From: Hydrogenobacter sp.
GTDB lineage: Bacteria > Aquificota > Aquificia > Aquificales > Aquificaceae
Assembly: GCA_028276405.1 (NCBI GenBank)
Contig: JAPYWJ010000010.1
Coordinates: 1 to 36,128 of the forward strand
Length of the DNA: 36,128 nt
Direction: 5' to 3'
In this document: in pieces, positions 1,765 to 31,390 of the stretch
Position numbering within the stretch: position 1 is the stretch's first letter
How the letters are laid out: every line of letters starts with the position of its first letter
Made by a program: the position numbers and the translations under genes
The notes under the pieces: model-generated
Database searches by the model: none
Told to the model about the DNA's origin: nothing
Seen by the model: the letters and a program-made list of their open reading frames with translations, nothing else

Positions 1765-3321
1765 ATGTTTGTTAGCCTACAGTTCAAGCTTGAACTAAGA
1801 AAGGAAGACAGAGAAAAACTCATAAAGCTGATGCGTAAGCAGTCCTCCGCTATCCGTGTGGCATACAATATGCTAAAGGAGTTGGAGGAAGAGAAAGCTA
1901 AAAACCCTCTCACCCAGATGTACCAAAGACTGAGACAGCTATTCCCTGATTTACCAACAATATACATTGCTTCAGCCATATACAAAGCTAAGCAATATCC
2001 CACAGATAAACCAGTAGTGTTTGGTGGCAGAAGACTTTTTGAAAAACTTTGTAAAAACCACCTTTCAGGAAAAGCGAGAGAAAAACTTAAAAAGCAGTGG
2101 AGGGAGCTAAGACAGGGGACACTTATAAGCATCGGGTCAAAGGCAGACAAAGGAAACAGATTGGCAAGGTTTGAAGACCTAAACGGACAGCTTTACCTTA
2201 GAATTACCACAGGAAACAGAGAGTTTATCTACGCCAAAGTGTTAAGAAAACCAAGCAACAGCAAAGATAAATGGATAACTTTTATGGCTATGCTTTTAGA
2301 AAGTTGGCAAACCCAAAACTACTTTGCCTACACAGTGGAGTTAAAACTGAGAGATGGAGAAGTTTATGGAAGTGTATCCTTTGAAATCCCAACGCCTGAA
2401 GTAAGATACACAAAAGAAAAGGGAGTAATAGCCATAGACACAAACGCATCACCCATCCACTTAGCCGTAGCTGAAGTTTCAAAAACTGGAGAATTAGTAA
2501 GCTATCAGACTATTAGCCTTCATAATCTTTTGGGACTTTCTCAAAACAGCAGAGACCATCAAGAGTGGATATTGGCACATCAGATAGTGAATTTAGCTAT
2601 TGAGAAAGGTAAAGCCATAGCTGTAGAGAATTTGAAAAAGCTTAAGAAAGGAAAGAGAGGAGATGGCAAGGCTAAACTGAGAAAAATACTTCACAACTGG
2701 AACGCCAAAAAATTTTTGCAAAAGCTAAAAAGAGTAGCAATGTTAAAGGGAGTGGAAGTAATAGAAGTCCATCCCGCCTATACATCAATCATAGGCATGT
2801 TAAAGTATGCACCACAGTTAAACATAGACAAAGACATAGCATCCGCATATGTGATAGGGAGAAAGGCATTAGGTTTTAAGGAAGACACATCCGAGAATTA
2901 TGAAAAGCTTTTGAAAGACAAAGCATATTTAGAGTTTGCCCTAAAGAGGTACGAAGAGAGAGAAAAGGAACTTGCGGAACTTTTAGAGAAGGAGACAAAC
3001 CAATACAAAAGGAATGCGTTAGAAAGTGAAGCTAAGACAGTAGAAAATGCAAGGAAGCTATTAACTAATCTCATACAAAGCCTTCAGAGTGAGCCAAGCT
3101 CCTGTGAGGGAGCCGAGGGAAGGAATCCTGAGCGGGGAAGAGGTAATAAAGCCTCTTCTGTAGCTTGGCAAGTTCTGAAGGTAGCCCTCCTCTTCCCTAT
3201 TCTTGGACGAATTCCACCAAGGGATTTGTCCCCTCTGAAGCCAGTGTTGGTGGAAGGGGTGTGGGATAGGGTGAGGAGTAGGTTAGCTCCTTTAGAGGTT
3301 GGAGGGGCGTCATGGAGCTAA
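1765..3321 (+). CDS. tnpB: TnpB-related RNA-guided nuclease lacking the zinc ribbon
   Basis: This is an IS200/IS605-type TnpB-related protein. The split RuvC site is intact: D225 in VIAIDTNAS, E288 in AIAVENLKKL, and D357 in NIDKDIASAYVIG. The part between HPAYTS and the last RuvC motif is short and has no cysteine, whereas canonical TnpB carries a four-Cys zinc ribbon there. This fits the 'TnpB-related' clade with a TSxIG..KY segment. The 518-aa frame probably overstates the protein: beyond about residue 443 the DNA becomes G+C-rich and folds as a structured RNA. Known TnpB proteins are RNA-guided DNA nucleases that help keep the element in place. No tnpA transposase is visible nearby, so the copy may be stranded or domesticated. 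Confidence 0.85.
   Translation: MFVSLQFKLELRKEDREKLIKLMRKQSSAIRVAYNMLKELEEEKAKNPLTQMYQRLRQLFPDLPTIYIASAIYKAKQYPTDKPVVFGGRRLFEKLCKNHLSGKAREKLKKQWRELRQGTLISIGSKADKGNRLARFEDLNGQLYLRITTGNREFIYAKVLRKPSNSKDKWITFMAMLLESWQTQNYFAYTVELKLRDGEVYGSVSFEIPTPEVRYTKEKGVIAIDTNASPIHLAVAEVSKTGELVSYQTISLHNLLGLSQNSRDHQEWILAHQIVNLAIEKGKAIAVENLKKLKKGKRGDGKAKLRKILHNWNAKKFLQKLKRVAMLKGVEVIEVHPAYTSIIGMLKYAPQLNIDKDIASAYVIGRKALGFKEDTSENYEKLLKDKAYLEFALKRYEEREKELAELLEKETNQYKRNALESEAKTVENARKLLTNLIQSLQSEPSSCEGAEGRNPERGRGNKASSVAWQVLKVALLFPILGRIPPRDLSPLKPVLVEGVWDRVRSRLAPLEVGGASWS
3093..3311 (+). ncRNA. Putative omega RNA (reRNA) overlapping the tnpB 3' end
   Basis: The last 220 nt of the tnpB frame hold nested complementary stems that a coding tail would not need. 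GCCAAGC 3093-3099 pairs with GCTTGGC 3163-3169. Inside it GAAGAGG 3137-3143 pairs with CCTCTTC 3152-3158, and GCTCC/GGAGC (3098-3102/3109-3113) is an alternative local stem. A long arm follows: CTCCTC 3187-3192 with GAGGAG 3273-3278, CCCTAT 3195-3200 with ATAGGG 3266-3271, TTCCACCAA 3212-3220 with TTGGTGGAA 3247-3255, and the hairpin GGGA-TTTG-TCCC at 3221-3232. The stretch is visibly richer in G+C than the gene body. Omega RNAs of TnpB elements lie at this place; the guide would be the bases just beyond the right end, near 3305-3330. Confidence 0.65.
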
Positions 3322-29138: not shown

Positions 29139-29160
29139 ACCCATTTCTCCCTGATGACAT

Positions 29161-29187
29161 TTTGGCAATGTTTTGTCCCTTTGGCAA
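29161..29187. repeat. Direct repeat TTTGGCAA upstream of the sigma-54 promoter
   Basis: TTTGGCAA occurs at 29161-29168 and 29180-29187, 19 nt apart, within the 154-nt gap between the MCE gene and the DsrE-like gene. The distance from the promoter (54-80 nt upstream of the -24 element) suits an enhancer site for a sigma-54 activator. Confidence 0.4.
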
Positions 29188-29240
29188 CACATCCTTAAAT
29201 GGGTGCATTGAAAAACAAGGCTTCTTTGTAAAGAGGGCGT

Positions 29241-29256
29241 TGGCATGCTTTTTGCA
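29241..29256 (+). promoter_or_regulatory. Sigma-54 (RpoN) promoter
   Basis: TGGCATGCTTTTTGCA matches the -24/-12 consensus TGGCAYG-N4-TTGCW throughout, with GG (29242-29243) and GC (29254-29255) 10 nt apart. Transcription should begin near 29267, leaving a short leader with GAAGGAGGTG before the ATG at 29280. Confidence 0.8.
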
Positions 29257-29279
29257 CACAATGTTGAAGGAGGTGCACC

Positions 29280-29786
29280 ATGGACAGAAGAAGCTTTTTT
29301 AAGCTTACTGCGGCGATGGGTTCCATTCCTGTATTGAATAAGTTAGCTTATTCAGCACCCGCTAAGGTCAATCCTGTTGATTTAAAAAAAGACACACCCA
29401 TAGCGGTTGTTTACCACTGCGACTTTCCACAAGAAGCGCGTTTTAGCGCCATGCTTACCAACATAGGGAATCACCTCTCTGTATACGACAACGACCCTTT
29501 CAAGATAAAGATAGTTGTTGTAGCGCACGGTCCTGGAGTTAAGTTTTTCATGAAGGACCTCTCGGGAAGCCCATGGGAAAACGAACCCATAAACATTCCG
29601 GAACTTGCAAGAAGGGAAAAAGACTTAACTTTATACGGCGTTGAGTATTACATATGCAACATAACCCTGACACGCTTAAGGCTAAATCCGGATAAGCTTT
29701 ATGACTTTACCAAGATAGTGCCTTCTGGTGTGGGTGCCATAGGAGAACTTCAGTCAAAGGGTTTTGCGTACATAAAAGTTCAATAA
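29280..29786 (+). CDS. Tat-exported DsrE-like protein
   Basis: This 168-aa protein begins with a twin-arginine signal (DRRSFFKLTAAMG, cleavage near residue 26) and then a DsrE/F-like alpha/beta domain (about 40-168): PIAVVYHCDF, KIKIVVVAHGPGVKFFM, LTLYGVEYYICNITLTRL, with C126 at the place of the reactive Cys in many DsrE proteins and C47 near the first strand. Tat export implies folding in the cytoplasm. A periplasmic sulfur-binding role is inferred, not shown. First gene after the sigma-54 promoter; the porin follows 14 nt later. Confidence 0.82.
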   Translation: MDRRSFFKLTAAMGSIPVLNKLAYSAPAKVNPVDLKKDTPIAVVYHCDFPQEARFSAMLTNIGNHLSVYDNDPFKIKIVVVAHGPGVKFFMKDLSGSPWENEPINIPELARREKDLTLYGVEYYICNITLTRLRLNPDKLYDFTKIVPSGVGAIGELQSKGFAYIKVQ

Positions 29787-29800
29787 AAGGAGGAAAAAAA

Positions 29801-31390
29801 ATGAGAAAGGGGAAGATTTTAAGCTCAGGATTTTTGATGGTGTGCCTTTTTGCTCCCGAATTTGCTCATGCCATAAGGCTTTCCGGTCCTGCGGAGGAAC
29901 AGTATCTTGACATTAACTTCCTGATGCAACTGTGGTTTAGGCATCAGGATATAAGCTCTCAAAATAGGCCTAACTTTGTAAATGCGAGTGATAGAGATGA
30001 TGTATTTTTTAGAAGGATAAGGTTAAGATTCTTTGGTAGCGCTTCTTCATGGTTTAAGTTCAACTTGGTTTTGAGAGACAATGACTTTGGAAGAGACCCC
30101 TACGATGCACCTTTTGGTGGACAACCTACACATTCCAAAAGACAAAGCAACAGAAATACTGGATACATTCACGAATTTGATGCCATATTAGTTCCAAGTG
30201 CTATGACGGATACTAGAGGAATAACTCTTGATTTACATTTGGGTTATCCAAGAGTACCTTTGGGAAGAGAGCAGTTTCAGAGAGCTTACGATAACATAGA
30301 TTTAGACAGAACAAATGCCTCTTTAAGATGGACCCATTTAGCGATAGGAGATGTGACAGGTAGAGCTTTTGGAGGTTATGCACATATAAGAGCTTCCAAT
30401 AAGGGTAGCGGCTATTCAAAAATCACCCTTGACGGATTTGTTGGTGCTTTCGGTGGGTTCAAAAATGTTAAAAACCCGTGGGATGAGTCTGTTGTAGGTG
30501 TGGGCGCAAGTACTCCCCTATGCGGGTATACATCCCCTAATCCCGCAATAAGTACTTGCCTTTCTAAAGCAAGGGGCAACTCTTCCAATAACTTTTTGTA
30601 CACTTTCAGGGCAACGGTACAGTTCGGGGAGCCAGAAGGCAAGCCAGTTATATACAACTGGCTATATAGGGATACTTACTTAGGAAAGAGGAAAGGCGTT
30701 ACTTTAGGTGTATCTTACGCCTTCCAGAATAAAATAAGCCAGCACATAATTACGGATACTCAGGGTATATCCCCCGGATTTCTTGGCAACGGAGCCCCTT
30801 ACAACGGTGCAGGAACAGTAAATGCGAGAATACCATACCTTCTCTTGCCCAATCCCATAGGAGTGGGTAGTGCCGCTGTATCCAACAGTCTTTTAGATAA
30901 TAAGGTGGATATGAAGTTTTACGGAGCTGATATCTCATGGCATCACGGACCCATATCCTTTGTGGCGGAAGTTGGGCAGGTAAAGTTTAGCAAACTACTC
31001 CTTGCTGATGGTGCTAACAATCTGTATCCAGGAAAGAGCATAAAGAATGACTTTTGGCTTGTCAAGGCAGGTTACATGATAAACCCTAACGCGGTGCATA
31101 AGTTTGAACCTTACATTAGTTACTCAGAGTACAAACCTCAGATAGTTCAGGTGGGTAGTGGTGCAAACGCAAGACTTTACGGAGATGCTACCGACTTTGT
31201 GGGTGCTAACCAACTCACAGCAGGTCAAGACAGATCAAGCCTTGGAAAGATAAAACAGGTAGGCATTGGAATAAATTACTACTATAAAAGTGAAAACTTC
31301 AGGTGGACTGTAGAGTACACAAGGTTTGATGAGCAAAGGAACAAGATAAACAATGATGCGGTAAGCGTGCAGTTTCAGTGGATCTTTTAG
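29801..31390 (+). CDS. OprO/OprP-type outer-membrane porin
   Basis: This 529-aa protein has a Sec signal peptide (cleavage after AHA, about residue 24), many alternating beta strands and a C-terminal aromatic (QFQWIF) as in outer-membrane barrels. The early FFRRIRLRFFGSASSWFKFN region resembles the phosphate-selective porin O/P family. Two cysteines 12 residues apart (LCGYTSPNPAISTCL) may form a loop disulfide. AAAGGAGG supports the start. It is cotranscribed with the Tat DsrE-like protein. The ligand is unknown. Confidence 0.85.
   Translation: MRKGKILSSGFLMVCLFAPEFAHAIRLSGPAEEQYLDINFLMQLWFRHQDISSQNRPNFVNASDRDDVFFRRIRLRFFGSASSWFKFNLVLRDNDFGRDPYDAPFGGQPTHSKRQSNRNTGYIHEFDAILVPSAMTDTRGITLDLHLGYPRVPLGREQFQRAYDNIDLDRTNASLRWTHLAIGDVTGRAFGGYAHIRASNKGSGYSKITLDGFVGAFGGFKNVKNPWDESVVGVGASTPLCGYTSPNPAISTCLSKARGNSSNNFLYTFRATVQFGEPEGKPVIYNWLYRDTYLGKRKGVTLGVSYAFQNKISQHIITDTQGISPGFLGNGAPYNGAGTVNARIPYLLLPNPIGVGSAAVSNSLLDNKVDMKFYGADISWHHGPISFVAEVGQVKFSKLLLADGANNLYPGKSIKNDFWLVKAGYMINPNAVHKFEPYISYSEYKPQIVQVGSGANARLYGDATDFVGANQLTAGQDRSSLGKIKQVGIGINYYYKSENFRWTVEYTRFDEQRNKINNDAVSVQFQWIF

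Follow-up and report, generated by a model that had tools for sequence, protein, structure and literature searches.

The locus described here raises the question of why Hydrogenobacter sp., from the thermophilic and sulfur-oxidizing bacteria of the Aquifex family, encodes a Tat-type DsrE-family protein and an outer-membrane porin side by side behind a putative sigma-54 promoter, and which substrate and regulator the two proteins would serve. The window (the whole stretch of 36,128 nucleotides that was analyzed) carries dsrE on the + strand (29280..29786, 168 aa) and, 14 bp after its stop and on the same strand, a porin gene with its own ribosome-binding site (29801..31390, 529 aa).

The DsrE assignment is based on Pfam, on an alignment of relatives, and on a structural model with fold matches. 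The protein matches the Pfam DsrE family (PF02635) at 1.5e-11 (44.9 bits against a cut-off of 22.7), and its model (pLDDT 89) has MTH1491 as the nearest fold (5.4e-9), followed by other DsrE/F, YchN, DsrEFH, and TusBCD chains. Across 41 relatives that span Aquificota, Thermus, and Alphaproteobacteria, C126, H46, and H65 are invariant; Cys126 (codon 29655-29657, +) aligns with the conserved cysteine of MTH1491 and ST0148, and the protein thus has the sulfur-binding cysteine of PF02635. The initial annotation described a Tat-exported DsrE-like protein with two cysteines. The family and the count (C47 and C126) are correct, but C47 is replaced by A or S in many orthologues, and we therefore reject two catalytic cysteines. 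Regarding export, the twin-arginine motif DRRSFFK has an R3-R4 pair that is invariant in close orthologues, whereas the Pfam TAT_signal profile scores 12.3 bits, below its cut-off of 22.7. Orthologues that are 54-56% identical also occur in several Thermus species (L087, L089, L090, L105, L123), with no porin or sox nearby.

The porin is assigned to an OprP/OprO-like barrel based on Pfam matches of its homologues, HHalign, and fold matching. The window porin itself has no Pfam match at E up to 1, including Porin_O_P (PF07396); however, 10/14 of its homologues match Porin_O_P, and the porin profile aligns with that of Porin_O_P porins from Sox clusters at an HHalign value of 99.8%. The best PDB folds for its model, which is of moderate quality (pLDDT 61, pTM 0.69), are OprP and OprO (2o4v, 4rjw). 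The proposal of an OprO/P-like porin thus holds at the level of the predicted fold, although the window porin has ~12% identity to OprP/OprO and a longer chain. Similarity to the selenite/tellurite porin ExtI is weak (54.2 bits with profile NF040900, against a curated cut-off of 150). The porin has many invariant arginines, which suggests that it forms an anion channel.

Absence of co-occurrence in relatives would have argued against a functional unit, but dsrE and the porin gene were found side by side in 29 genomes, of which 28 are Aquificaceae and one belongs to the Hydrogenothermaceae. The Aquifex porin gene is broken (L139, G001:C1:782189-783584), and so the porin would be dispensable there or in that strain; in another genome (G057, L142) both the porin and the binding protein described below have one internal stop. 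The neighborhoods of unpaired dsrE genes in Aquificaceae revealed no functional context. Elsewhere in the window, there is a 518-aa open frame (1765-3321) with no Pfam match, possibly a mobile-element protein; related sequences lie next to dsrE loci in L010 and L154, the one in L154 at 70%.

Gene context in relatives points to sulfur. Ten alphaproteobacterial loci have a dsrE orthologue (41-56% identity) in the vicinity of soxABCYZ (families confirmed for L094), and the Sox clusters of Hydrogenothermaceae and Hydrogenobaculum include genes for Porin_O_P porins and DsrE proteins. A SoxB match was identified in 29/29 genomes with the pair (partial in G014, G019, and G024). However, the Aquificaceae pairs do not adjoin sox, and SoxB is also encoded by many genomes that lack the pair. 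Thus, based on the Sox-linked relatives, a sulfur role of the pair is likely, on indirect evidence.

Two other functions have to be weighed against sulfur supply. The same regulation might serve the uptake of a different anion, either phosphate/polyphosphate or another oxyanion (for instance selenite or arsenate), with DsrE as a redox helper. The porin family includes phosphate porins, which counts against the sulfur reading, and the best folds, OprP and OprO, are phosphate and pyrophosphate porins; the weak ExtI match (54/150 bits) and genes reading as arsR and arsC a few kb upstream of the pair in one genome (G028) are also consistent with such uptake. We nevertheless consider it unlikely, as the related DsrE and Porin_O_P genes are situated in Sox clusters, rather than in phosphate or selenite clusters, and the arsenic neighbors are restricted to that one genome. 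Alternatively, the pair might answer sulfide, persulfide, or elemental-sulfur stress instead of supplying substrate, with DsrE keeping periplasmic sulfane sulfur soluble and the porin letting the excess out. DsrE proteins bind sulfane sulfur, and another sigma-54 site in the genome precedes a gene that reads as a flavocytochrome-c-like sulfide dehydrogenase, both in keeping with a stress response; yet the Sox clustering of relatives indicates thiosulfate oxidation, and the porin gives no direction, which leaves this alternative improbable.

A sigma-54 -24/-12 element, TGGCATGCTTTTTGCA, is present at 29241..29256 (+) as an exact consensus match that is conserved in orthologues. In TTGGCATGCTTTTTGCA, GG (29242-29243) and GC (29254-29255) give the GG-N10-GC spacing, with the dsrE ATG 39 bp on, and the full pattern used to define such promoters (GG-N10-GC with TGGCAY-N5-TTGCW) is matched exactly at 29241-29256. 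Exact TGGCAYNNNNNTTGCW matches number one in the whole window (the dsrE promoter) and 10 in the genome, compared with one in the genome for the reversed control pattern, and 0/100 shuffles of the 300-bp region upstream of dsrE equal the -24/-12 score. The genome also encodes RpoN (Sigma54_DBD, 7.3e-38), with the RpoN box ARRTVSKYR intact in the C-terminal part and the 5' part past the contig edge; we considered whether this gene is broken by the one TGA within the match, but the TGA is the normal stop of a gene merely cut by the contig edge. The predicted transcript start (~29267) falls on the ribosome-binding site of dsrE, AAGGAGGT (29267..29274, +), which would give a short leader. Upstream DNA was usable for 27/29 pair loci, of which 23 keep the full GG-N10-GC; three (L023, L047, L050) keep the -24 with an altered -12, and L057 has a poor element. 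For L007, L011, and L012, in which the tandem scan chose another hexamer pair, the element position was taken from an earlier orthologue comparison. The full-consensus promoter proposed in the initial annotation is therefore borne out by the exact match, the shuffles, the conservation in orthologues, and the presence of RpoN.

Further upstream we predict activator sites that the initial annotation had missed. Two half-site pairs, TGACATTTTGGCA (29155..29167, unstranded; consensus TGYCA-N3-TGRCA) and TGTCCCTTTGGCA (29174..29186, unstranded), form the best tandem of the window (18/20), a score reached by 0/60 shuffles, and are conserved. Across the 27 upstream regions, 13-bp palindromes (TGYCA-N3-TGRCA) occur as a tandem of two with a gap of 6-8 bp, and the tandem ends 41-79 bp upstream of the -24; with the exception of L057, the best tandem scores at least 18/20 (26/27 loci), a score not attained by any of the 60 shuffles made for each locus. 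In 64 Aquificaceae genomes the strict tandem occurs in 13 places, all at the dsrE-porin promoter (control, 0; ~0.006 expected by chance), and the window's own tandem is a weaker version (18/20, below the Aquifex sites) outside these 13. One contig (in G021) ends at a strict tandem, just past the NtrC1 stop. Upstream of the eight dsrE genes that lack a porin there are neither tandem sites nor a -24/-12 element (8/8); this, together with conservation and the tandem sites, leads us to reject chance as the origin of the -24/-12 element. The tandem is also close to the start of the divergent mlaD, but control of mlaD is not needed to account for it, because elsewhere NtrC1, and not mlaD, lies upstream.

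In most genomes with the pair, the gene upstream is an NtrC-type regulator, and in Aquifex and other genera a PF04392 binding lipoprotein gene comes first, followed by genes for a PAS histidine kinase and an NtrC-type regulator, then the sites and promoter, and finally dsrE and the porin gene. The Aquifex regulator is NtrC1 (PDB 1NY5, 4L4U); its match to 4L4U extends over the full 438 residues and contains a single difference. In the genus to which the window belongs, the genes for the kinase and the binding protein are in one place, NtrC1 in a second, and the pair in a third, but all have been kept together. Among 42 near-complete Aquificaceae, 20 have both porin and NtrC1, 21 have neither, and one is discordant (the draft genome G062, with the pair and sites present and NtrC1 not found), and the counts for porin and binding protein are the same (20/21/1); the Fisher value is 8e-11 in each case, in a test that ignores kinship, and linked genes move together, such that the informative cases are the unlinked ones, genus g1 and G063. 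A joint loss is evident in G026 (L141, genus g1): stops and gaps interrupt the pair, a remnant of 86 residues is left of the binding protein, and NtrC1 is absent. The pair is present in G102, where both NtrC1 and the sites are lacking. NtrC1 is therefore the likely activator of the pair as judged from gene content and DNA sequence. That a different sigma-54 activator acts at the dsrE promoter is highly improbable: the genome encodes some six proteins that contain a sigma-54 activation domain, and G062 has the pair and sites with no NtrC1 found, but co-distribution with NtrC1 is otherwise complete, also where the genes are unlinked, and G026, G018, G051, and G052 retain other activators though the pair and sites are gone.

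Sigma-54 control and the coupling of both genes, as initially proposed, are strongly supported by adjacency in 29 genomes and by conserved promoter and predicted activator sites, and signal-dependent induction by the co-inherited binding protein, histidine kinase, and NtrC1. We are thus confident that dsrE and the porin gene would be transcribed as one operon by sigma-54 RNA polymerase, with NtrC1 as the activator. As the inducing signal suggested earlier, sulfur is plausible in view of the Sox-linked relatives.

The other nine exact -24/-12 matches in the source genome comprise four at promoter distance from genes, with the rest within genes; the genes behind them are named here from reading the sequence. 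The four precede an lpxC-like gene, a flavocytochrome-c-like sulfide dehydrogenase gene, a DUF2173-like operon, and a kinase-like gene. The match at L177:10641 (G000:C4) is ~29 bp before the gene reading as lpxC; published work on NtrC4 reportedly describes sigma-54 control of lpxC in Aquifex, with which this site agrees. The Tat-type gene reading as a flavocytochrome-c-like sulfide dehydrogenase follows an exact element (L181:5774; G000:C27:7773-7788) and has a sigma-54 activator gene just upstream (C27:5347-6453), which makes it a second sulfur-linked sigma-54 promoter in the genome. A further match (L177:5526, G000:C4) precedes small DUF2173-like genes in a row, and then a PAS-type sigma-54 activator gene. 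The sox genes of the source genome were considered as a second target, but no -24/-12 element was found upstream of them.

Taken together, these data are compatible with the following mechanism. The binding protein would sense a ligand outside the inner membrane, and the kinase would phosphorylate NtrC1, which, on its two tandem sites, would open the sigma-54 closed complex. With less certainty, the ligand may be a form of reduced sulfur, with thiosulfate, a polythionate, or a polysulfide as the most likely candidates; the porin, rich in arginine, may let this anion cross the outer membrane; and DsrE, exported via Tat, may accept sulfane sulfur or a thiosulfonate on Cys126 and deliver it to the periplasmic Sox machinery. 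We regard the case for the sulfur-import part as evenly balanced, and the explanation as a whole (an NtrC1-driven sigma-54 operon for sulfur import to Sox) as reasonably probable. More tentatively, the binding protein, kinase, and NtrC1 could be devoted to sensing a sulfur anion outside the cytoplasm, with the outer-membrane channel and exported sulfur carrier as their single target; this would be an undescribed system that imports sulfur compounds for Sox, and NtrC1 would have its natural target in it.

With respect to known systems, the regulator next to the operon in Aquifex is Aquifex aeolicus NtrC1 itself (PDB 1NY5, 4L4U, 3M0E), which is known as a structural model and is here given a candidate target; a search of the open literature found no description of a target of NtrC1. 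NtrC1 is among the best-resolved AAA+ sigma-54 activators, and the enhancer, promoter, and two-gene output would provide a complete, testable thermophilic in vitro system. The closest regulatory precedent is TspS/TspR of Acidithiobacillus caldus, a sigma-54 two-component system that activates the sox-II operon via TGTCCCAAATGGGACA (PMC6335251). A sigma-54 promoter, a two-component NtrC-type activator, and a periplasmic sulfur context are common to both, but TspR targets sox itself, whereas the operon described here has tandem TGYCA-N3-TGRCA sites, dsrE-porin as the target, and an additional PF04392 binding protein; at the dsrE-porin promoter we found neither the TGTCCC-N4-GGGACA site nor a sox target. 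By contrast, the sox promoters of several Hydrogenothermaceae (L149:978, L151:10364, L148:1001; upstream of soxX in L146, L147, and L150) have a -24/-12 element and tandem TGTTCC-N4-GGRACA-type palindromes that closely resemble the TspR site of Acidithiobacillus, and seem to belong to the TspR type. Some of these sox operons adjoin genes for an NtrC-type regulator, a kinase, a phosphonate-type binding protein, and DsrE.

In Sulfurovum indicum, dsrE is beside sox and induced on thiosulfate, and OprD-like porins have been proposed for S0 uptake, although how elemental sulfur crosses the outer membrane of sulfur oxidizers is still open (PMC10045233). Sox-linked dsrE and porins suggested to import sulfur are features in common, but the Sulfurovum porins belong to the OprD family and have no dsrE partner, and sigma-54 control was not reported there. 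For the passage of sulfur substrates across the outer membrane of sulfur-oxidizing bacteria, the present analysis puts forward a regulated porin, together with its exported DsrE protein, as a candidate. DsrE3A and TusA carry thiosulfonate (PMC4175335) and have in common with the protein described here a DsrE fold whose active cysteine binds sulfur compounds; they are cytoplasmic proteins with a link to hdr and tusA, whereas the present DsrE is predicted to be Tat-type and is linked to a porin. The initial statement that no such system has been described thus stands for the exact combination, which is new as far as the open literature shows, but not for its parts, since Sox-linked dsrE, porins proposed to take up sulfur, and, in TspS/TspR, sigma-54 two-component control of Sox have already been described.
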